Positions 1-10,847 of a stretch of 64,000 nucleotides of DNA are shown piece after piece. The first letter of the stretch is position 1. Every line of letters begins with the position of its first letter. Under the pieces are notes generated by a model. That model was not told where the DNA came from. It saw nothing but the letters and a program-made list of their open reading frames with translations, and ran no database searches. Location of the stretch: positions 434,001-498,000 of the forward strand of contig NZ_JARVWQ010000002.1 in NCBI RefSeq assembly GCF_029846255.1, given 5' to 3'. The DNA is from Amnibacterium sp. CER49. GTDB lineage: Bacteria > Actinomycetota > Actinomycetes > Actinomycetales > Microbacteriaceae. The translations under genes were made by a program, and so were the position numbers.

Positions 1-579
1 GACGAGGACGTCGGCGCGGAGCGATGCGATCATGCGGGTCGTCATCGACCCCATGAAGGCGCTGCACCAGTTGTAGTAGGTCCCACCGAGCCCGAGCAGG
101 GTCACCCCGCGGGCGACGCGCAGCTCGTTCAGCAGCGGCAGGGCGTTCGTGATGACGGTGAGCGGCGCCTTCGCCGACAGGTGCCGCGCCATGTGCTGGA
201 CGGTCGTCGAATCGTCGAGCAGCACCGCCTGCCCCGGCTCGAGGTGCTCCATCGCCGCGGCGGCGAGCGCCTCCTTCTCCCGCCGCTGCCGGGCGGCGCG
301 GTAGACGTCGCTCGACTCGACGAGCAGCGACGAGGTGGCGGTGGCGATGCCGCGGCTCTTGCGCAGCAGCCCGCGCGCCTCGAGCTCGTCGAGGTCGCGG
401 TGCACGGTCATGACGCTGATGTCGAAGCGGTCGGCGAGCTGCTCGATGCGGATCGTGCCGGCCGCCATCACCGCCTCGGTGATCGCGCGCTGCCGCGCCT
501 GCTGCCGACCCTGCCGCGTCTCGGCGGCGGGCCCCTGGCCCTGCTCCTCCCCCGCGCCCTCGAGGTCCGTCGCGCTCAT
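1..579 (-). CDS. DeoR-family transcriptional regulator (C-terminus cut by window edge)
   Basis: The visible 193 residues begin with a winged helix-turn-helix typical of DeoR/GlpR repressors: a recognition segment reading ISVMTVHRDLDELEARGLL, preceded by an ITEAVMAAGTIRIEQLADRF helix. A phosphosugar-binding domain begins after it (LLDDSTTVQHMARHL, then TVITNALPLLNEL). The ATG overlaps the stop of the isomerase gene upstream by four bases (ATGA), so this is the distal gene of the polyol operon. Regulators of this family usually respond to a phosphorylated sugar intermediate. By position this one is the likely repressor of its own operon, like EryD of erythritol loci, though that is inference. 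The end of the gene lies outside the window. Confidence 0.9.
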   Translation of the reverse strand, partial: MSATDLEGAGEEQGQGPAAETRQGRQQARQRAITEAVMAAGTIRIEQLADRFDISVMTVHRDLDELEARGLLRKSRGIATATSSLLVESSDVYRAARQRREKEALAAAAMEHLEPGQAVLLDDSTTVQHMARHLSAKAPLTVITNALPLLNELRVARGVTLLGLGGTYYNWCSAFMGSMTTRMIASLRADVLV

Positions 580-1364
580 CGCAGCGCCATCGCCTCGTCG
601 AGCACGGCGGCGACCGCCTCGGGGTCGTGCGCGAAGCGGCCGAGGAACAGGCCGTCCACCGCCCCGTCGAGCCGGCCGAGCAGGCCGGGGCCCGCGCTGC
701 CGCCGTAGATCACGGACGTCGGCGGCAGGTGCGGCCGGGTCGCGAGGAACGCGCGGATGCCGCTCGTCACCTCCGCGACGTGCTCGGGCGCGGCCGACGA
801 GTCGGCCCCGATGGCCCACTCGGGCTCGTAGGCGATGAGGAGCCCGGCGCCCTCGGGCGCGTCCGGCAGCCCGTCGAGCGCCGCGGCGAGCTGGGCGGTC
901 ACGTCCGCGATCGCGCCGGTCGCGTGCTGCCGGGTCCGCTCCCCCGCGCAGAGCACGGGGACGAGGTCGTTGCGGAGCGCAGCGGCGAGCTTGCGGCGGA
1001 TCGTGTCGTCGGTCTCGCCGAAGAACCGCCGCCGCTCGGCGTGCCCGATCTCGACGAGCTCGCACCCGACGGCGCGGAGGTCGGCGCCGCTGACGGCGCC
1101 CGTGTAGGCGCCGCGGTCCTCCCAGAAGAGGTCCTGCGCGCCGACGCGCACCGGCGTGCCCGCAGTCGCCTCGAGCACGCCGGCGAGGGCGGGCAGCGAG
1201 GGCAGGACGAAGACCCCCGCCGTGCCGCTCGCGGTCGCCTCGTGGTCGCGGACGATCTCGCCGATGCGCCGCGCCCAGGCGACGCTGCGCGCCGGGTCGA
1301 GGTACAGCTTCAGGCTGACCCCGATCAGGGGCCGGGGCAGCCCCGGCCCGGTGCGATCGGTCAC
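576..1364 (-). CDS. Triose-phosphate-isomerase-like tetrulose phosphate isomerase
   Basis: 262 residues from a GTG start reading VTDRTGPGLP. The TIM-barrel catalytic residues are visible: Lys19 (GVSLKLYLD), His108 (EIGHAERR) and Glu180 (AYEPEWAIG), with a phosphate-binding IYGGSAGPG near the end. The Asn two residues before the lysine in glycolytic TpiA (NWK) is Ser here. That, and its place beside an RpiB-like gene and a Dha-type kinase, points to the EryH/LerI group, which isomerises L-erythrulose 1-phosphate (tetrulose phosphate), rather than to glycolysis. It lies 7 bp after the RpiB-like gene and overlaps the DeoR gene by 4 bp. An upstream extension to 1655 exists but would overlap the RpiB-like gene, so the short form is chosen. 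Confidence 0.85.
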   Translation of the reverse strand: MTDRTGPGLPRPLIGVSLKLYLDPARSVAWARRIGEIVRDHEATASGTAGVFVLPSLPALAGVLEATAGTPVRVGAQDLFWEDRGAYTGAVSGADLRAVGCELVEIGHAERRRFFGETDDTIRRKLAAALRNDLVPVLCAGERTRQHATGAIADVTAQLAAALDGLPDAPEGAGLLIAYEPEWAIGADSSAAPEHVAEVTSGIRAFLATRPHLPPTSVIYGGSAGPGLLGRLDGAVDGLFLGRFAHDPEAVAAVLDEAMALR

Positions 1365-1371
1365 GGGCGGC

Positions 1372-1842
1372 TCAGGCGTCCGAGCGCTGCTCGTACTCGG
1401 TGAGCACGGCGACCTTCTCGGCCGAGGCGCTCCCCTCGTCGAACTCGTACTGCAGCCACTCGCGGGCGAGCCGCCGGGCGAGCTCGAGCCCGATGACGCG
1501 CTGCCCCATGGTGAGCACCTGAGCGTTGTTGCTGAGCACGCTGCGCTCGACCGAGTAGCTGTCGTGGGCCGTGACCGCACGGATGCCCGGCACCTTGTTC
1601 GCCGAGATCGCGACACCGAGCCCGGTGCCGCACACGAGCAGGGCACGGTCGGCATCGCCGGCGGCGACCCTCTCGGCGGCCGCGATCGCGATCGAGGGGT
1701 AGGGGGTGTGGCTCTGCGCGTCCACGCCCACGTCGGCCACGAGCTCGACGTCGGGGTTGCCCTCGAAGTCCTTCTTGATGGCCTCCTTGTAGTCGAACCC
1801 GGCGTCGTCCGAGCCGACCACCACGCGCCACTTCCTCGTCAT
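1372..1842 (-). CDS. RpiB/LacAB-family sugar phosphate isomerase (probable erythrulose 4-phosphate isomerase)
   Basis: 156 residues. The family hallmark [19 protein letters not shown] contains the catalytic Cys71, and [15 protein letters not shown] follows. These features place it in the RpiB family, closest in pattern to the EryI/DerI members of erythritol pathways, which convert D-erythrulose 4-phosphate (D-tetrulose 4-phosphate) to D-erythrose 4-phosphate. A role as ordinary ribose 5-phosphate isomerase B cannot be excluded from sequence alone. The ATG at 1842 overlaps the stop of the kinase gene (ATGA), and GGAGGAG precedes it at a good distance, so translation can be both coupled and independent. 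Confidence 0.88.
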
Positions 1843-3572
1843 TCGTCTCCTCCTTCGGCAAGGACCGCCGTCACAGCGGTCAGGGTTTGAGCCAGCGACA
1901 CGGCGCCCGGGTCGGGAGTGCCGCGGCTCTTCTCCACATGCGGACGGGCGCGTCCGAGCCGCGGCAGCAGGTCCGCGGTCGCCTCCGCGGCTGCGGTCGC
2001 GTCGGCGGCGGCGGCCCGCCACGCGACGGCGAGCGCCTCGCCGTTCCCGACGTGCGCGGCGAGCGAGTCGGTGAAGGGCACGAGCGCGTCGACGAGGGTC
2101 TTGTCGCCGACCTCGGCCTTGCCGAACCGGGTCACGGCGTCGCGCGCCGCGGCGACCGCCTCGGCCACCCGCTCGGCGCTCGGCGCCGCGTCGTCGCCGA
2201 GGCTCGTGCCGAGGGCGCGGAGGGCCGCCCCCCAGAGGGCGCCCGAGGTGCCGCCGGCCTTGTCGGCCCACGCGTCGCCCGCGAGCGCGAGGGTGGTGCC
2301 CGCGCCGGCGCCACGGTCGGCCGCGTCCCGGGCGGCCGCGTCCGCGGCGGTCGCGCCGCGCTGCATGCCGATGCCGTGGTCGCCGTCGCCGGCGACCGCG
2401 TCGAGGCGCCCGAGGGCGTCCGCCTCGCGGTCGATGGTCTCGCGGATCGCGGTGATCGCCCGCACGACCCGGCCGACCGCGCGCCTCGAGTCGTCGGAGG
2501 CGGGCGGGATCTCCTCCGCCGCGGCCTCCTCGGCCGCCGCCTCCTCGTCGACCTGCTCGCCCGCGGCGAGGTCGAGGCCGCCGGCACCCTTGCGGTAGGC
2601 CGGGGTGTAGGCGGGCGAGCGCCACGCCTGCTCGAGCTCCTCGTCGAGCCAGGTGAGGGTGAGCGACGCGCCCGCCATCTCGAAGCTCGTCGCGTACTCG
2701 CCGACCTCGGGTTCGACGATCGTGAGGCCCGCTCCCTCGAGCAGGTCGGCGATCGTCGTGTAGGCGACGAAGAGCTCCTCGGTCTTCACCGACCCGAGGC
2801 CGTTCAGGATCACGGCGACGCGGTCGGCGCCGTCGGGGCGCTCGGCGAGCAGCCGGTCGACGAAGAGGTGCGCGAGCTCCTCGGCGGTGGGCAGGTCGAC
2901 CTCGTCGATGCCGGGCTCCCCGTGGATGCCCATGCCCACCGCCATGCGGCCCGCCGGCACGGTGAAGAGCGGCTCCTCGGCGCCGGGCAGCGTGCAGCCG
3001 GAGAAGGCGACGCCGAGCGAGACGGTGCGGTCGTTGGCCCGCGCGGCGAGCGCCTCGACCTCCTCGAGAGAGCGGCCCTGCTCGGCGGCCCAGGCGGCGA
3101 CGCGGAACACGACGAGATCCCCGGCGATGCCGCGGCGCTTCTCGCGCTCGTCCTCCCCCGCGCTGAACACGTCGTCGGTGACGCGCACCGTGCGGCACGG
3201 GATGCCCTCGGCGTTCAGCCGCTCCTGCGCCTGGTCGAAGTTCAGCACGTCGCCCGCGTAGTTGCCGTACGACAGCAGCACGCCGGCGGGTGTCGCGACG
3301 GCCTTCGCGACCGAGTAGACCTGATGCGCCGACGGCGAGGCGAACACGTTGCCCATCGCGGCGCCGTGCGCGAGGCCCGGCCCGACGAGGCCGGCGAACG
3401 CCGGGTAGTGCCCGGAGCCGCCGCCGATGACGACGGCCACCTGGGTCTCGGGCGTGCGGGTGCGTCGGGCCACGCCACCCTCGACGCGGCGCACGAGGTC
3501 GCCGTTCGCCCGGACGAAGCCGGCCGTCAGCTCGTCGGTGAAGCGTGTCGGGTCGTTGCGCAGGTAGCTCAC
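1839..3572 (-). CDS. Fused DhaK-DhaL dihydroxyacetone-type kinase (probable erythrulose kinase)
   Basis: 577 residues. The DhaK domain (about 1-335) has [12 protein letters not shown] at 50-61 and the covalent-substrate histidine His217 in GIHGEPG. An Ala/Glu-rich linker (about 338-356) joins it to a DhaL ATP-binding domain with AGDGDHG at 394-400 and KAGGTSG. The order is that of single-chain ATP-dependent kinases, not of PTS-linked DhaKLM. Neighbouring isomerases of the tetrulose-phosphate type suggest D- or L-erythrulose as substrate, as in DerK/LerK of Mycobacterium; dihydroxyacetone remains possible. The start is GTG at 3572 with GAGGAGGAC upstream. The stop overlaps the RpiB-like start. 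Confidence 0.88.
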
Positions 3573-3631
3573 GTGTGGTCCGTCCTCCTCGAGCGGTGGA
3601 GCGGGGGCGGCGGTGCCGCCCCCGCGTCCTG

Positions 3632-4651
3632 CTACTGGCTGATGGTGAAGGGTCCCGTCATCTTGCTCACGTTGTCCTTCGTGATCAGGATGCAGTTGAA
3701 CGCCTGCTTCTCCTGGTTCGCTCCGGTCTTGCCGGTGCGGATGAAGCTGTCGGCCTCGTCGACGGCCTTCTTCGCGAAGGTCGCGACCGGCTGCAGCACG
3801 GTGTACTGCAGGGTGCCGGCCTTGATCGCGTCGACCGCGTCGGGCGAGCCGTCGAAGCCGCCGACCTTCACGTTCTTGATCTTCCCGGCCTCCTTGAGCG
3901 CCGCGATCGCGCCGAGCGCCATCTCGTCGTTGCCGGCGATGACCGCGTCGATCTTCGGGTGCGCCTGGAGGATCGACTGCATCTTGTCGTGGCCCTGGGT
4001 GCGGTCCCAGTTCGCGACCTGCTGCGCGACCTTCTTGTAGCCCGGGTACTGCGAGATCACGGTCTTGTAGCCGTTCGAGCGGGTGGCCGCGTTGTTGTCG
4101 GCCGGGTTGCCGTACAGCTCGACGTAGTCGGCCTTCTGCCCGACGGCCTTCACGAACTGCTGCGCGCCGATCGCGGCACCCTGGGCGTTGTTCGACACGA
4201 GCTGCGCCTTCGCGATGCCGGTCTGGTTGATCTCGGCGTTCACGAGGATCACCGGGATGCCCGCCGCGTTCGCCTTCTTCACGTTGCCGATCGAGCCGCT
4301 CGCGTTCGCGGGGTCGAGGATCAGCGCCACGGCGTGGCTCGAGATCGCGGTGTCGACCTGCTGGCTCTCCGCGTTCACGTCGCCCTTGCTCGCCGTGACC
4401 TTCGCCGTGTAGCCGAGCTTCTTCGCCTCGTCCGAGGCCACGTTGCCCTCGGTGAGCCAGTACGGGTTGGCCGGGTCGTTCACGATGATCGAGATCAGGC
4501 CGCCCTTCTTGCCGGAGCCGCCGGACGAGCTCGAGCTCGAGCTGCTCTTGCTGGAGCCGCCGGACGAGCCGGAGCCGCCGGATGCGCACCCGGCGAGCGC
4601 GACGGTGAGACCGATGCCGAGCGCGAGAGCCGCGCCTGCTTTGCGGGACAT
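3632..4651 (-). CDS. Sugar/polyol ABC transporter substrate-binding lipoprotein
   Basis: 339 residues with a lipoprotein signal: a hydrophobic segment ending LAGC, so Cys22 is the predicted lipidated residue. A Ser/Gly-rich tether of about 25 residues follows. The rest reads as a type-1 periplasmic binding protein of the ribose/xylose class ([53 protein letters not shown]). It should deliver the sugar alcohol to the RbsC-type permease encoded just upstream. It starts at ATG with GAAGGAA upstream and sits 59 bp before the kinase gene. The exact ligand is not readable from sequence; tetritols are the inference from the operon. Confidence 0.9.
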
Positions 4652-4690
4652 GCTGTGTTCCTTCTTCTCGGTGAGGTGGCAGCCCCGGCG

Positions 4691-5824
4691 CTAGCCGGCG
4701 GCCTTCTCGAGCACGGTGCGGTCGGCGCCTGCCGTCGCGGTGCTCGGAGCGGTGGCGGAGGGCGGGCTGCCCGCGCCGTTCTGGGCGGCACGGCGCCGGC
4801 CGCGGTACTGCACGGCGTTCAGCAGCACCGCGAGCACGATGACGGTGCCCGTGAAGACGGTCTGCCAGTACGCGGAGACGCCGACGATGACGAGGCCGTC
4901 GGACAGGAAGCCGATGACGAACGCGCCGAGCAGCGTGCCGCGGATGTTGCCGCGGCCGCCGGTGAGGGCGGCACCGCCGATGACGACCGCCGCGATGGCG
5001 GTCAGCTCGTAGGACGTGCCCGCCGTCGGGCTCGCCGAGGTCAGCTCGGAGGCGAGGATCACGCCCGCGATCGCGGCGCAGACGCCGGAGGCGACGTAGA
5101 CCCGCACCTTGACGCGCCGCACCGGCACGCCGGACAGCTCCGCGGCGCGCTCGTTGCCGCCCGAGGCGTACACCCAGCGACCGAAGACGGTGCGGTTCAG
5201 CACGAGGCTGACGAGCACGGCGACGACGATCATGACGAGCACGCCGATCGGCACGTTGAGGATGCGGTTGAACCCGAGCCAGTCGAAGCCGGTGTTGCCG
5301 AGCGCCGGGTCGCCGTCGAGGCTGCTGAACGTGAGGCCGTTCGTCATGAGCTCGGCGAGCCCGCGCACCGCGTAGAGGGTGCCCAGCGTGGCGACGAACG
5401 GGGCGACCTTCAGCCGGGCGACGAGGATGCCGTTCACGAGCCCGACGAGCGCGCCGACGGCGAGGGCGATCACCACGACGACCCAGACGGCCGGGTAGAG
5501 GGTGACCCCGCCGAGCTTCACGCCCTGCATGAGGAAGCCGGCCACCATGCCGGAGAGCCCGAGCGTCGAGCCGACCGACAGGTCGATGCCGCCGTTCAGG
5601 ATGACGAGCAACATCCCGATCGAGAGGATGGCGTACACGGACACGTGCGACGCCATCACGAGGATGTTGCCGACCGTCGGGTACGACTGCGGCGCCAGGA
5701 TCGTGAACACCACGAAGATGACGATGAGCGCGAGGAACGCGCGTCCCTCGAGCAGGATCTTGCCGAGGTCGAACCGGCTCGTCGCCGGGGCCTGGCCCTT
5801 CGGGGCCGCGGGGACCGTGGTCAT
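4691..5824 (-). CDS. ABC transporter permease, RbsC type
   Basis: 377 residues, strongly hydrophobic, with about ten membrane segments. Family landmarks include GGIDLSVGSTLGLSG and the cytoplasmic EAA-like stretch GGNERAAELSGVPVRR, followed by GGAALTGGRGNIRGT. This is the membrane channel of a ribose/xylose-class importer working with the ATPase encoded upstream and the lipoprotein encoded downstream. The start is ATG at 5824 (MTTVPAAPKGQAP), 20 bp after the ATPase stop. The C-terminal tail after GRRRAAQNG is low-complexity Ala/Thr/Ser and probably dispensable. Confidence 0.92.
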   Translation of the reverse strand: MTTVPAAPKGQAPATSRFDLGKILLEGRAFLALIVIFVVFTILAPQSYPTVGNILVMASHVSVYAILSIGMLLVILNGGIDLSVGSTLGLSGMVAGFLMQGVKLGGVTLYPAVWVVVVIALAVGALVGLVNGILVARLKVAPFVATLGTLYAVRGLAELMTNGLTFSSLDGDPALGNTGFDWLGFNRILNVPIGVLVMIVVAVLVSLVLNRTVFGRWVYASGGNERAAELSGVPVRRVKVRVYVASGVCAAIAGVILASELTSASPTAGTSYELTAIAAVVIGGAALTGGRGNIRGTLLGAFVIGFLSDGLVIVGVSAYWQTVFTGTVIVLAVLLNAVQYRGRRRAAQNGAGSPPSATAPSTATAGADRTVLEKAAG

Positions 5825-5844
5825 GCTGTCTTCCTCTGGTCGAT

Positions 5845-7389
5845 TCAGACCACGACCGCTTCTCCCGAAGCGGCCATGATCTCTTCCTTGGCCGCCTGCG
5901 GCCCGAACTCGGCGGAGATGCGTCCGCGGCGCAGCACGACGATGCGGTGGGCGATGCTCAGGCACTCGCCGACCTCGGACGTGGAGTAGACGACGGCGAG
6001 GCCCTCGCGGGCGCGATCCGCGAGGAGGCGGAAGACCTCGGCCTTCGCGCCGACGTCGATGCCGCGGCTCGGCTCGTCGAGCAGGATCACCTTGGGCCCG
6101 GTCGAGACGATCTTGCCGATCACGACCTTCTGCTGGTTCCCGCCCGACAGCGAGCCGATCGGGGCCGCTCCCCCGGACGTCTTCACCCGCACGTCGCGGA
6201 TGCCGGCCTCGACGAGCGAGCGCTCCGCGTCGCGGGACAGGAACAGGCCCTTCACGAAGCGGCCGACGCTCGACAGCGACAGGTTCTGGCCGACGGTCAT
6301 GGTCTGCACGAGACCGTCGCGCTGCCGGTCCTCGGGCACGAGGCCGAGGCCGGCGGCGAGCCGCTGCGCGATGCTCATCCGGCTGACGTCGCGGCCCTGC
6401 AGCACCACCCGGCCGCCCGTGACCGGGACCCGCCCCGCGACCGCCTCGAGCAGCTCGGTGCGCCCGGCTCCCATGAGGCCGTAGAGGCAGACGATCTCGC
6501 CGGCGCGCACGTCGAGCGAGAGGTGGTCGACGACGGAGCGGTCGGGGTTCTCGACGTCGGCGACGCTCACGTCGTCGATCGCGAGGGCGACCGGGCCGAA
6601 CTCGTAGCCGGCGGGCGGCTCGCCGAGGTCGAAGTTGTCGCCGACCATGCGGCGGACGATCCACTCGAGGTCGATGTCCTTCGCGAGCGCGTTCGCCGTG
6701 ATCGACCCGTCGCGGAGGACGACCGCGAAGTCGGTGATCTGCAGCGCCTCCTCGAGGTGGTGGGAGATGTAGACGATCGAGACGCCCTTGCGCTTCAGGT
6801 CCGCGATGACCCGGAACAGCACCTCGACCTCGGTGGCCGACAGCGCGCTCGTCGGCTCGTCCATGATGAGGATCCGCGCGTCGATCGAGAGGGCGCGGGC
6901 GATCTCGACGACCTGCTGCTGGCCGAGCCGGAGGTCCGAGACGAGCGCCGCGGGGTCGATGTCCTCGCCGAGCTCCTTCAGGATCTCGGCCGACTGCCGC
7001 CCCTCCTCCTTGTAGTCGACGCCCGTCGGCGTCCGGAGCTCGCGCCCCATGAAGATGTTGTCGCGCACGGACAGGTTCGGAGCGAGGCTCAGCTCCTGGT
7101 GGATGATCGAGATGCCGCGCTCGCGGGCGTCGACGGTGCTGCCGAACTGCACCTCGGCGCCGTCGAGCAGGATCCGCCCGGAGGTGGGCTGCTCGACGCC
7201 GGACAGGATCTTCATCAGGGTCGACTTGCCCGCGCCGTTCTCGCCGAAGAGCGTGGTGACCCGACCCCGGTGGATGTCGAAGTTCACGCCCTTCAGCGCC
7301 CGCGTGCCGCCGTACGTCTTGACGACGTCGCGGGCTGAGAGGACGACCTCGTCGGCCCCGGGTGCCGACGCGACGGTCTCGTCGCTCAC
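5845..7389 (-). CDS. ABC transporter ATP-binding protein, RbsA type (two nucleotide-binding domains)
   Basis: 514 residues holding two ABC cassettes. The first has Walker A GENGAGKST at 49-57 and Walker B ILIMDEPTSAL. The second has the degenerate P-loop LMGAGRTELL usual in RbsA/XylG proteins, an intact LSGGNQQK signature and Walker B VILLDEPSRGID. It powers uptake through the RbsC-type permease. The GTG start at 7389 overlaps the stop of the DUF2291 gene (GTGA), indicating translational coupling. Confidence 0.93.
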   Translation of the reverse strand: MSDETVASAPGADEVVLSARDVVKTYGGTRALKGVNFDIHRGRVTTLFGENGAGKSTLMKILSGVEQPTSGRILLDGAEVQFGSTVDARERGISIIHQELSLAPNLSVRDNIFMGRELRTPTGVDYKEEGRQSAEILKELGEDIDPAALVSDLRLGQQQVVEIARALSIDARILIMDEPTSALSATEVEVLFRVIADLKRKGVSIVYISHHLEEALQITDFAVVLRDGSITANALAKDIDLEWIVRRMVGDNFDLGEPPAGYEFGPVALAIDDVSVADVENPDRSVVDHLSLDVRAGEIVCLYGLMGAGRTELLEAVAGRVPVTGGRVVLQGRDVSRMSIAQRLAAGLGLVPEDRQRDGLVQTMTVGQNLSLSSVGRFVKGLFLSRDAERSLVEAGIRDVRVKTSGGAAPIGSLSGGNQQKVVIGKIVSTGPKVILLDEPSRGIDVGAKAEVFRLLADRAREGLAVVYSTSEVGECLSIAHRIVVLRRGRISAEFGPQAAKEEIMAASGEAVVV

Positions 7390-8051
7390 GACTTCACCGA
7401 GATCGTCGCGGGCGTGACGTTCCAGTTCTTCGGGTTGATGAGCTGGAACACCCCGGCGATCGTGATCGTCTTCCCGGTGAGGTCGGGCGCGCCCGCCTTC
7501 TTCAGCTCGGCCTTCAGCCGGTCGTTCAGCGCGGACGCGGCGTCCTGGTACTGGATCTGGTTCTCGAACTGCCCGAGCTGGATCTTGCCCGTGGCGTCGC
7601 GGAGGTCGGTGCCGTTGATCGCCGGCCCGAGCTGCACGTGCACGACCGTGTCCTTCGGCAGCCCCGCGACCGTCACGACCGGCAGGCCGGTCGCGTCGGC
7701 CTTGCCGACGGTGCCGGTGAGCTTCACCGGGACCTCGGGGCCGGCGCCGGAGTCGTTCGCGACGCCGTACTTCGTGCCGGCCGCTGTCGGGTCCTTCGCG
7801 AGCGCCGCGGCGAGCGTGGACGCGTCGACCGCGTGCTGCTCGATGAACCGCTGCTGCACCGGGAACGTCTTCTTGCCGTAGGCCGCCGCGCTGAAGGCGG
7901 GCGCTCCGCCGCTGCCGACGACCTGACCCTTGCCGACGACCTTCGTGCTGAGCGCCATGAGCGCGAGCACCACGACGATCACCGCGGCGATGACGATCCG
8001 CCTGACGAGCGGGCCGCGCGACGGGCGCTCCCCGGTGGCGACGGCCGTCAC
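7386..8051 (-). CDS. DUF2291-family membrane-anchored protein
   Basis: 221 residues from GTG at 8051 (VTAVATGERP). One N-terminal membrane segment (about residues 17-36, IVIAAVIVVVLALMALSTKV) is followed by a soluble, presumably extracytoplasmic domain without catalytic motifs that I recognise. The central stretch VVHVQLGPAINGTDLRDATG and the IQLGQFENQIQYQDAA that follows look like DUF2291. Such proteins tend to be encoded within sugar-alcohol ABC transporter operons and their role is not known to me. It overlaps both neighbours by four bases (GTGA each side), so it is made in fixed ratio with the dehydrogenase and the ATPase. A role in substrate capture or transporter assembly is only a guess. 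Confidence 0.8.
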   Translation of the reverse strand: MTAVATGERPSRGPLVRRIVIAAVIVVVLALMALSTKVVGKGQVVGSGGAPAFSAAAYGKKTFPVQQRFIEQHAVDASTLAAALAKDPTAAGTKYGVANDSGAGPEVPVKLTGTVGKADATGLPVVTVAGLPKDTVVHVQLGPAINGTDLRDATGKIQLGQFENQIQYQDAASALNDRLKAELKKAGAPDLTGKTITIAGVFQLINPKNWNVTPATISVKS

Positions 8052-9079
8052 AGCAGCACCCGCGACTCGGTGTCGTTCGGGCGGATCTGCAGCTTGCGGC
8101 CGGTGCCCTTGCGGAACATCTCGAGCGCCTCGGCGTAGTCGTCGAGGACGAACGAGTGGCTGATCATCGGCGTCGGCCGGATGGCCCCGGCCTCGAACAT
8201 CTCGACGGCCCGGCCGAACGAGTTGAGCACCGCCATCGTGCCGACGATCGAGATCTCGTCGCGGTAGACCCGGAACGGCGAGTAGTTCGCCGTGCGGTCG
8301 GCGGGCGCCACGCCGAAGTCCTGGAAGAAGCCGGCGGGCTTCACGCGCGTGAGGCCGTCCTCGATCGCCCGGATGTTGCCGGTGCAGTCGATGACGACGT
8401 CCCACTTCTCCCGTCCGGCGTCGTCGGCGCTCGTGAAGCGGTGCTCGACGCCGACCTCGGCCGCGGTCTGCAGCCGATCCTCGTTGAGGTCCACGACGGT
8501 GACGCTCGCGGCGCCCGCGCGCGGGGCGAGCTGCGCCATGAGCAGGCCCATCGTGCCGGCGCCGTAGACGAGCACGTGGTCGCCGAGGCGGCGGGGCAGC
8601 ACGTCCCAGCCGCGGATCGCGCAGGCGAGGGGCTCGATGAGCGCGGCCTCGAAGAGGTCGGTCTCGGGCTTCAGCTTGTAGACGTTGCTCGCCGGGGCGA
8701 CGAAGCGCTCCTGCGACGCCCCGTCGGAGGCGACGACGCCGAGGCCGTTCCAGAACCGGCAGAGGTTCTGGTGACCGTTCAGGCAGAACTCGCACTCGCC
8801 GCAGGTGGTGCTCGGGTTGATCGCGACGTGGTCGCCGACGTGGAAGTCGAAGACGCCGTCGTTGACCCCCTCGCCGAGGGCGATGATCGTGCCGGTCGCC
8901 TCGTGGCCCGGCACGAGCGGGAACACCGTGCCCTCGAACTCGCCGTCGAAGACGTGCGTGTCCGTGCCGCAGATACCGACCGCGGCGGTCTCGATGAGGA
9001 TCTCCTTGTAGCCGGGCTCGGGATCCGGCCGCTCCGTCAGCGAGAGCTTCCCCTCGGACTCGAACACCACTGCACGCAC
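8048..9079 (-). CDS. Zinc-dependent polyol/alcohol dehydrogenase
   Basis: 343 residues of the medium-chain dehydrogenase family. Catalytic zinc ligands Cys37 (GICGTD) and His59-Glu60 (PGHEATG) are present. The four structural-zinc cysteines are Cys93, 96, 99 and 107 (CGECEFC...NLC), and the NAD-binding loop is VYGAGTMGLLMAQ. It is predicted to oxidise the imported polyol to a ketose, such as erythritol or threitol to erythrulose, as the first step of the operon. I chose GTG at 9079 because GAAGGAG lies eight bases upstream. An in-frame GTG at 9118 would add 13 poorly conserved residues and lacks a ribosome site. This is the first gene of the operon. Confidence 0.88.
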   Translation of the reverse strand: MRAVVFESEGKLSLTERPDPEPGYKEILIETAAVGICGTDTHVFDGEFEGTVFPLVPGHEATGTIIALGEGVNDGVFDFHVGDHVAINPSTTCGECEFCLNGHQNLCRFWNGLGVVASDGASQERFVAPASNVYKLKPETDLFEAALIEPLACAIRGWDVLPRRLGDHVLVYGAGTMGLLMAQLAPRAGAASVTVVDLNEDRLQTAAEVGVEHRFTSADDAGREKWDVVIDCTGNIRAIEDGLTRVKPAGFFQDFGVAPADRTANYSPFRVYRDEISIVGTMAVLNSFGRAVEMFEAGAIRPTPMISHSFVLDDYAEALEMFRKGTGRKLQIRPNDTESRVLL

Positions 9080-9187
9080 CGCGAACGCTCCTTCGCATCC
9101 CTCCGACGCGCCGCTCACGTGAGGAGAAGCGCCGTCGGTCCCGTCCCGGTCCCGCCGGTGCCGGCGGTCCCCCGGCGGTCCCCCGCC

Positions 9188-9230
9188 GTGTGATCTTCGT
9201 GTGATCTTCTCACACGAGTCGTGTGAGAAG
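9188..9230. promoter_or_regulatory. Operator between the polyol operon and glpK: direct repeats plus 25-bp palindrome
   Basis: GTGTGATCTT occurs at 9188-9197 and again at 9199-9208, exactly 11 bp apart, one helical turn. It runs into a perfect 25-bp palindrome at 9206-9230 with 12-bp arms CTTCTCACACGA around a single G. The site is about 110 bp before the dehydrogenase start and about 105 bp before glpK, so one protein bound here could control both directions. The DeoR-type regulator of the operon is the obvious candidate. The binding protein is inference; the repeats are seen directly. Confidence 0.75.
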
Positions 9231-9335: not shown

Positions 9336-10847
9336 GTGGCCGACCACGTCCTCGCGCTCGATCAGGGCACCACCTCGACCCGCGCGATCCTCTTCGACCG
9401 CTCCGGCTCGATCGTCTCGGTCGGCCAGCTCGAGCACCGGCAGCTGCTCCCCCGCGCCGGCTGGGTCGAGCACGACCCCGACGAGATCTGGCGCAACACG
9501 CGCGAGGTGATCGGGCAGGCGCTGTCGCGCGCGAACGTGACGCGGCACGACATCGCGGCCGTGGGTATCACGAACCAGCGCGAGACCACGGTCGTGTGGG
9601 AGCGCAGCAGCGGGCGTCCGATCGCGAACGCCGTCGTGTGGCAGGACACCCGCACCCAGCCGCTCGTCGACGCCCTCGCGAAGGACGGCGGCGAGGAGCG
9701 CTTCCGGACCCGGACGGGCCTGCCCCTCTCGACCTACTTCGCGGGCACGAAGATCCGGTGGATCCTCGACTCCGTCGACGGGGCGCGGCGGCGGGCCGAG
9801 GCGGGCGAGCTGCTCTTCGGCACGACCGACACCTGGCTGCTCTGGAACCTGACCGGCGGTCCGGACGGGGGCGTGCACGCCACCGACGTGACGAACGCCT
9901 CCCGCACGCTCCTCATGGACCTCGAGACGCTCGCCTGGGACGACGAGCTGCTCGATCTGGTCGGCGTGCCGCGGGCGATGCTGCCCGAGATCCGCAGCTC
10001 CTCCGAGGTGTACGGCTCGGCCGAGCCCTCGAGCCTGCTGCGGGGCACGCCCATCGCCGGCATCCTCGGCGACCAGCAGGCGGCCACCTTCGGGCAGCTC
10101 TGCTTCGAGCCCGGCCAGGCGAAGAACACCTACGGCACCGGCAACTTCCTGCTGCTGCCGACCGGCACGGACATCGTCCGGAGCAGCCACGGCCTCCTCA
10201 CGACCGTGGCCCACCGGCTCGGGGACGCACCGGCCGCCTACGCGCTCGAGGGCTCGATCGCGGTGACCGGGTCGCTCGTGCAGTGGCTCCGCGACAACCT
10301 CGGCCTGATCGGCAGCGCGGCCGAGGTGGAGGCCCTCGCGGGGGACGTCCGGGACAACGGCGGCGCCTACTTCGTCCCGGCGTTCTCCGGCCTGTTCGCG
10401 CCCTACTGGCGGCCGGACGCCCGCGGGGCCCTCGTCGGCCTCACCCGGTTCGTCGACAAGCGGCACCTCGCGCGCGCCGTGCTCGAGGCGACGGCGTTCC
10501 AGACCCGCGACGTCGTCGAGGCTGCGAACGCGGACACGGGGCAGCCGCTGACCGAGCTGAAGGTCGACGGCGGCATGATCGCCAACGAGCTGCTCATGGG
10601 CTTCCAGGCCGACCTGCTCGGCGTCCCGGTGATCCGGCCGAAGGTCGCGGAGACGACGGCGCTCGGCGCCGCCTACGCCGCCGGGCTCGCCGTCGGCTTC
10701 TGGGACCTCGACGCGCTGCAGGAGCAGTGGGCGGAGGACCGGCGCTGGACCCCGTCGATGCCGGAGGACGAGCGCGAGCGGCAGTACCGCAACTGGGGGA
10801 AGGCGGTGCGCCGCAGCCTCGACTGGGTCGACGAGGACGTGCGCTGA
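9336..10847 (+). CDS. glpK: Glycerol kinase
   Basis: 503 residues of the FGGY kinase family. The opening [13 protein letters not shown] is the ATP-binding hairpin of GlpK, followed by [13 protein letters not shown], the substrate-site segment [12 protein letters not shown] and [20 protein letters not shown] near the end. It phosphorylates glycerol to glycerol 3-phosphate in the cytoplasm. The start is GTG at 9336 with GAAGGAG upstream; a longer reading from 9201 lacks conserved sequence and crosses the operator palindrome. It diverges from the polyol operon, which raises the possibility of shared control or of a four-carbon polyol as alternative substrate, but the motifs are those of ordinary GlpK. 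Confidence 0.95.

Follow-up and report, generated by a model that had tools for sequence, protein, structure and literature searches.

A putative four-carbon sugar alcohol operon combining a rhizobial-type importer with an erythrulose module in Amnibacterium sp. CER49

The window analysed here is a stretch of 64,000 nucleotides from Amnibacterium sp. CER49 (Microbacteriaceae; contig NZ_JARVWQ010000002.1, positions 434,001 to 498,000 of the forward strand), whose genome comprises 2 contigs and 3.36 Mb. It begins within an operon that, judging from its sequence, very probably imports an erythritol-like four-carbon sugar alcohol (tetritol) and degrades it by oxidation first, with a Dha-type kinase second. 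Coordinates and domain searches identified a zinc dehydrogenase (DH1), a DUF2291 protein, an RbsABC-type ATP-binding cassette (ABC) importer, a fused DhaK-DhaL kinase, an RpiB-like protein, a triose-phosphate isomerase (TIM)-like protein and a DeoR regulator at positions 1-9079, all on the minus strand, with adjacent genes overlapping by 4 bases or lying 7 to 59 bases apart (Table 1). A sequence-only reading of this DNA had named all of these genes and had their order and spacing right; it had also called the operon complete, which is not quite correct because the window starts within it, and the end of the DeoR gene, a second zinc dehydrogenase (DH2) and genes for DhaK (DhaK2), DhaL and DhaM lie beyond. 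In total 13 genes were counted for the operon, ten of which, from DH1 to DH2, form the cassette. Because the same gene order recurs elsewhere, a chance reading of these genes can be set aside.

The importer resembles that of rhizobial erythritol loci. A tblastn search of a plasmid collection returned, among the matches listed, relatives of the binding protein with 73.6–75.6% identity in 40 records, all rhizobial by name. In Rhizobium leguminosarum BIHB 1148 and WSM1325 the match sits in the erythritol locus, with DUF2291, ATPase, permease, binding-protein and DeoR genes on the same strand, and genes for an FGGY kinase, a glycerol-3-phosphate-dehydrogenase-like protein, a TIM barrel protein, a sugar-binding regulator, a DeoR protein, a triose-phosphate isomerase and an RpiB on the opposite strand. 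These loci are read here as the eryEFG and eryABCD-eryR-tpiB-rpiB arrangement of PMC3599248, whose strain list includes WSM1325. The window binding protein was 74.0% identical to WSM1325 EryG over residues 51–339, above the 73% BLASTP identity that Geddes et al. (2013) used as their EryG cut-off (PMC3599248); the corresponding identities were 72.4% for the ATPase, 69.5% for the permease and 51.2% over 170 residues for DUF2291. As in the two R. leguminosarum loci, DUF2291 lies ahead of the ATPase gene, and a hypothetical gene is reported to start the eryEFG transcript (PMC3599248). The likeness extended to the predicted sugar pocket, where the window protein was identical to R. leguminosarum EryG at 12/12 positions and differed from the E. 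coli ribose-binding protein RbsB at 6/12. The twelve positions, read from the alignment, are the sugar contacts of RbsB. Among 25 EryG-like rows including the window's (L037, with a score below the limit, was excluded), 22 matched the window at all twelve, two differed at one, and one from Agromyces (L036) was of ribose type, retaining F15, F16, D89 and R90, none of which is present in the window protein. The importer appears to favour erythritol among the tetritols. Another host of such genes is Solirubrobacter, an actinobacterial genus. Its eryEFG genes are reported in a passage that does not include the enzymes (PMC10722151), and the importer as such is therefore not new to Actinobacteria.

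For the fused kinase, the model of the general Dak family was the only one passed (732, cut-off 492). The curated dihydroxyacetone-kinase cut-offs were missed (dak_ATP, 358.5 against 574.95; dhaK1, 283.8 against 406.25), as was that of DhaL, whereas the downstream DhaK2 passed dhaK1 with 463.2 and the downstream DhaL passed its own; in part, these scores argue against a kinase specific for dihydroxyacetone, an outcome that the sequence-only reading had named as contrary to its proposal. The window protein carries SGHYPAF and NYAGD. The motif SGH[YF]P[AG]F was found in 81 of 83 kinase relatives and NYAGD in 82, compared with SGHEP[LM]H and NYTGD in 8/8 DhaK proteins; the exact string IHGEPG was absent from 11 of the 83. 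Identity was 59% to a Pectobacterium protein (L038), of a kind reportedly assayed as an L-erythrulose kinase.

Neither isomerase grouped with the classical TpiA or RpiB enzymes, a grouping that would likewise have spoken against the earlier proposal. The TIM tree held 60 proteins, including those from 28 of the 80 loci kept from the scan described below, 10 of 17 family loci and 12 of 30 TIMs fetched from the phylum (the 30 phylum TIM and 30 phylum RpiB loci being the best-scoring ones, not a random draw). In it, 42 proteins including the window's formed a clade (100/100) that excludes the 14 classical TIMs and the 4 alphaproteobacterial proteins. The residue before the catalytic Lys was Ser in 92/92 TIM-like proteins and 3/3 rhizobial-type EryH proteins, against Asn in 12/12 classical TIMs, and the second Gly of the phosphate site was Arg in 90/92 TIM-like proteins (the other two have no letter there) and 3/3 EryH, against Gly in 12/12 classical TIMs. 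On the curated 'tim' model the window protein scored 85.5, below the cut-off of 130.6, while the other TIM of the genome passed with 164.2 and R. leguminosarum EryH missed with 122.8. By the missed cut-off, Ser for Asn and Gly-Arg for Gly-Gly, the TIM-like protein is not a classical triose-phosphate isomerase. Among its solved relatives, 11ef bears the name L-erythrulose-1-phosphate isomerase; the best one is 3s6d, from the same fungus (Coccidioides) as the RpiB structures 3qd5 and 3sdw.

In the RpiB tree, which took 18 of the 30 fetched phylum RpiBs, 45 cassette-type, rhizobial and enterobacterial proteins separated from 20 others (100/98), with a long-branch warning. The ring-opening His of classical RpiB (His99 in E. 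coli) is Ser in the window protein and in 84/84 RpiBs from loci with the TIM-like gene (best match per locus), and the active-site Cys (Cys66) is retained in all of these. The His was present in the other RpiB of the genome and in 29 of the 30 RpiBs sampled from the phylum; the remaining one (L155) has FGGY kinase matches nearby. A ring cannot form in four-carbon 4-phosphates, and an erythrulose-4-phosphate isomerase would therefore be expected to have lost the residue that opens it. Among solved structures, the RpiB-like protein was closest to 3qd5 and 3sdw (189 bits), both C. immitis entries. The 2011 report on the Coccidioides structures described Ser109 in place of the ring-opening His and a slightly different binding of phosphate, and suspected a shorter-chain substrate, then unconfirmed (PMC3212906). 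That substrate is likely a four-carbon phosphate. In Yarrowia lipolytica, deletion of an RpiB-like gene strongly impairs erythritol use (PMC5992420).

The gene combination was found in other genomes. Of 397 other genomes of the family, 17 contained DH1 at E 1e-90 or better; importer genes followed DH1 in 14 of the 17 loci, the run DH1-DUF2291-importer-kinase-RpiB was present in 11 and DH2 in five, several of the contigs being short. None of the 17 stretches held a best match of DhaK2, DhaL (DhaL2) or DhaM. One Microbacteriaceae record counts twice over the loci of this family survey and of the scan below (L072, JAVECW010000102.1, lies letter for letter within L182), and L178 and L179 give the same percentages. 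As L182 comes from a genome of the window's own family, the assignment to Microbacteriaceae in the sequence-only reading holds. Relatives of DH1 in other genera were 72–88% identical and mostly head the same operon. The run DH1-DUF2291-importer-kinase-RpiB-TIM-DeoR-DH2 was also found in Arthrobacter sp. FW306-07-I, on a plasmid typed as conjugative (L006, 3479-14170), flanked by an IS30 transposase on one side and, on the other, by one hypothetical gene and then a site-specific integrase. A scan with the TIM-like pattern gave at least 545 confirmed matches, from which 80 loci were kept, several ending at contig edges; DhaKL was found in 71 and an RpiB match in 72. In 43 of the 80, two neighbouring genes were present that we take to belong to the D-apionate route: 31 of these loci have one type of major facilitator superfamily (MFS) transporter, 10 are without, one has the importer (the Agromyces locus, the sole one of the 80 with the importer beside these genes and without DH1) and one has importer and DH1. 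The remaining loci comprised 17 with another MFS type (seven from Curtobacterium), four with importer and DH1, one with importer only, three with DH1 only and 12 with none of these.

From the observed gene content, order, families, residue marks, trees and recurrence we infer each substrate, reaction and regulatory step proposed here. The substrate, most likely erythritol although L-threitol is also possible, would be imported by the EryEFG-type ABC importer with its DUF2291 partner and oxidised to erythrulose by DH1 and perhaps DH2. The fused kinase would phosphorylate erythrulose with ATP, the TIM-like enzyme would convert L-erythrulose 1-phosphate to D-erythrulose 4-phosphate, and the TIM-like and RpiB-like steps together would lead to D-erythrose 4-phosphate. 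Compared by description, the set resembles EltD, LerK, LerI and DerI of Mycolicibacterium smegmatis in bringing together a dehydrogenase, a Dak kinase and TIM-like and RpiB-like isomerases; the kinase and isomerases of that pathway are Dak-, TIM- and RpiB-like. The importers differ, that of the window being of EryEFG type and distant from 4rsm, the M. smegmatis binding protein solved with its ligand (100 bits, against 268 for 5ibq). Later papers report the M. smegmatis chain as oxidation first, with a polyol dehydrogenase, a kinase and two isomerases leading to D-erythrose 4-phosphate (PMC10733421, PMC10190533, PMC12780249). According to PMC10733421, EltD and LerK yield D-erythrulose 4-phosphate when acting on erythritol and L-erythrulose 1-phosphate when acting on L-threitol, and the four enzymes together give an E. 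coli strain that makes erythrose 4-phosphate from two tetritols; set against this route, the presence of the TIM-like gene hints at L-erythrulose as one of the intermediates in the window operon.

The R. leguminosarum ery locus shares the importer block with DUF2291 and the DeoR gene (51–74% identity) as well as the isomerase residue marks, but its isomerases are only 36% (TIM) and 51% over 109 residues (RpiB) identical to those of the window, and the TIMs fall in separate clades. Pfam and NCBIfam detected neither an EryA kinase nor an EryB dehydrogenase nor an EryC epimerase among the 13 genes of the operon, the sole FGGY kinase alongside being glpK. The Y. lipolytica cluster (EYD1, EYK1, EYI1 and EUF1) likewise brings together dehydrogenase, erythrulose kinase, RpiB-like and TIM-like genes, in a eukaryote (PMC5992420).

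Several observations weigh against an oxidation-first tetritol pathway. For the Y. lipolytica cluster the authors propose a kinase-first order (PMC5992420). The RpiB-like protein passed TIGR02133, 'ribose-5-phosphate isomerase' (198 against 168.2), and failed the rhizobial DerI model for D-erythrulose-4-phosphate isomerase, NF051858 (152.9 against 240), on which the R. leguminosarum gene scored 256.7. The binding protein has as its nearest solved relatives 5ibq and 4ry0 (268 bits), which the PDB names ribose transporter proteins. Finally, since 43 of the 80 TIM-like loci stand beside apionate-type genes, the kinase and isomerases alone mark erythrulose and not a tetritol. As to the first model, TIGR02133 gives the operon protein and the housekeeping RpiB (L012:1429-1938) one and the same name; the label therefore does not decide, the NCBIfam name was rejected as evidence on this protein, and annotation of such operons may mislead. 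Taken together, the EryG-type importer, isomerases outside the classical groups and a kinase with the motif of the isomerase-linked branch support the import of a tetritol and its degradation by oxidation first, as the sequence-only reading had proposed.

The ranking of 5ibq and 4ry0 and the frequency of apionate-type neighbours would both fit an operon for a branched or cyclic pentose (D-apiose or D-ribose) or for D-apionate, with a ribose or apiose importer and lower enzymes that process the resulting L-erythrulose. Both structures are from R. etli, 5ibq with apiose as ligand, and by eye the printed alignment retains the ribose-type residues in both. In the window protein these four residues are absent, all four being present in the Agromyces protein; on the pocket positions and the 74% identity to EryG, a ribose or apiose importer was rejected. 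The apionate operon was rejected because neither of its two extra genes is among the 13, and the pentose or apionate explanation as a whole is improbable. The branch in question, in which L-erythrulose enzymes are encoded next to MFS, xylose-isomerase-like TIM-barrel and PGDH_C genes and which we read as the D-apionate route reported by Carter et al. (2018), shares with the operon the kinase (59%), the TIM-like protein (50%) and the RpiB-like protein, for example in Pectobacterium (L038), but it has another upper pathway, and 41 of the 43 loci have no match to the EryEFG-type importer or DH1. In L073 the DH1-importer operon adjoins a kinase-isomerase set with both apionate-type genes, and in L190 it adjoins a set of this kind in which a PGDH_C-type gene stands at the stretch edge; two upper pathways may share one lower pathway in these loci.

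Quite improbable, too, is an operon that serves D-threitol or free erythrulose and not erythritol, in which D-erythrulose would be the intermediate and the TIM-like step a side branch. The different products of EltD and LerK from erythritol and L-threitol would be compatible with it (PMC10733421), one of the two dehydrogenases may serve each isomer, and there is a Curtobacterium citreum isolate obtained on L-erythrulose (PMC12780249). The importer, however, is of the erythritol type, and the TIM-like gene is kept in 11 of the 14 importer-bearing family loci (L170 and L183 end at contig edges; L180 lacks it).

Each of the six other genomes of the genus has glpK and dhaK side by side in divergent orientation. 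The interval of 0.37 to 2.25 kb contains no cassette gene; it holds a MIP channel gene in five of the six and a gene encoding a PF04198 (sugar-binding regulator) domain in four. DH1 was not found in these six genomes at a threshold of E 1e-90. In the window genome the ten-gene cassette occupies the glpK-dhaK site, and the MIP and PF04198 genes are elsewhere. We infer that the cassette replaced the earlier content or was inserted there, the direction resting on this small sample. Directly behind the cassette, after a gap of 80 bases, stands the DhaK-DhaL-DhaM set (-3728 to -1396), which is possibly co-transcribed with it and which, because the glpK-dhaK pair stands without the cassette in the six genomes, is the genus's own dihydroxyacetone kinase. 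An operon for glycerol or dihydroxyacetone, with glycerol oxidised by the dehydrogenases and dihydroxyacetone phosphate formed by the Dha kinases and fed into glycolysis by TIM, could draw on the divergent glpK, on the curated cut-offs passed by the downstream DhaK and DhaL and on the phosphotransferase system enzyme I of the genome (one match to its N-terminal domain), but it was rejected as very improbable indeed: the six cassette-free pairs show that no tetritol operon is needed to explain the pair, the fused kinase misses cut-offs that DhaK2 passes and has other motifs, the TIM-like protein is not of the classical kind, and the RpiB and the EryG-type importer would have no role.

Across the genome, DhaK domains were found twice, both at the operon, and TIM and RpiB genes twice each. 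DH1 has, by eye, an NAD-type motif. DH2 is 30% identical to DH1 and, among solved proteins, closest to sorbitol dehydrogenases.

Table 1. Genes and candidate operator of the operon region; positions refer to the window, negative ones lying beyond its start on the contig
Feature	Position	Strand	Evidence or remark
DH1, zinc-dependent polyol dehydrogenase, 343 residues, GTG start, first gene of the operon	8048..9079	-	ADH_N and ADH_zinc_N
DUF2291 protein, 221 residues, accessory gene of EryEFG-type importers	7386..8051	-	PF10054, 142 bits
Importer ATPase, RbsA/EryE type, 514 residues	5845..7389	-	two ABC_tran stretches
Importer permease, RbsC/EryF type, 377 residues	4691..5824	-	PF02653
EryG-type substrate-binding protein (RbsB-type), 339 residues	3632..4651	-	PF13407
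Fused DhaK-DhaL kinase, 577 residues, proposed L-erythrulose kinase (LerK type)	1839..3572	-	Dak1 and Dak2
RpiB-like protein	1372..1842	-	PF02502
TIM-like protein	576..1364	-	PF00121
DeoR/GlpR-type regulator, 290 residues	1..579, continuing beyond the window to -293	-	HTH_DeoR and DeoRC
DH2, second zinc dehydrogenase, outside the window	-1315 to -290		contig continuation
DhaK (DhaK2), outside the window	-2397 to -1396		passes curated dhaK1 cut-off
DhaL, outside the window	-3049 to -2411		passes curated cut-off
DhaM-type EIIA-HPr protein, outside the window	ends -3728; start not settled		
glpK, glycerol kinase, divergent neighbour outside the cassette	9336..10847, start by eye	+	FGGY domains
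Candidate operator (weak), repeated GTGTGA half-sites between DH1 and glpK	9187..9226		AAGATCACACG twice in tandem on the minus strand, then TCACACGAGTCGTGTGA

Repression of the operon is the probable role of the DeoR protein, which may act through the GTGTGA sites upstream of DH1. The operator pattern had two matches with one mismatch allowed, where 0.49 were expected, and 9 of 100 shuffles reached two; in a search of 15 upstream regions for a shared operator, no 8-mer was common to more than four. In pairwise comparison the window DeoR was 58.8% identical to the DeoR behind eryG of R. leguminosarum WSM1325 and 33.5% to EryR. In the R. leguminosarum loci (L004:17016-21210; L221:15018-19216) eryG is followed by this second DeoR gene, an FGGY kinase gene and a GlpD-like gene.

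Erythritol is in wide use as a sweetener, and bacteria are described as metabolising it by two routes (PMC12780249). What is new here is a Rhizobium-type importer and regulator joined to an actinobacterial L-erythrulose module, its position at a glycerol/dihydroxyacetone locus and the residue mark; no new reaction is involved. The sequence-only reading had stressed a gene combination different from the Brucella eryABCD order, and this difference stands; the novelty that it implied is weaker, since M. smegmatis has a published pathway of the same enzyme logic, which limits the novelty to the combination and the His-to-Ser mark. No description of the importer joined to the module was recognised among the top-ranked results in the open-licence literature. 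We lean towards a wider view, in which the His-to-Ser exchange would mark a whole class of RpiB proteins acting on four-carbon phosphates across bacteria and fungi, correct the TIGR02133 label and name the substrate of 3qd5 and 3sdw, and in which sequence alone would suffice to recognise mobile, mosaic tetritol operons that arose when a Rhizobium-type importer was joined to an actinobacterial L-erythrulose module. As the operon suggests, erythritol importers and the enzymes that act after them are modules that can be exchanged, even between phyla. The mark could repair a misannotation, ribose-5-phosphate isomerase for erythrulose-phosphate isomerase, and would tie to a pathway the structural question that the two fungal structures have left open since 2011; the operon also offers enzymes for four-carbon sugar conversion.

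Seven Curtobacterium loci (L017, L019, L022, L023, L028, L031 and L034) combine an MFS transporter gene with a kinase gene of the same kind and the TIM-like gene. For the C. citreum strain isolated on L-erythrulose, the Discussion of PMC12780249 calls the pathway unknown, and this MFS cluster is therefore a candidate for it.

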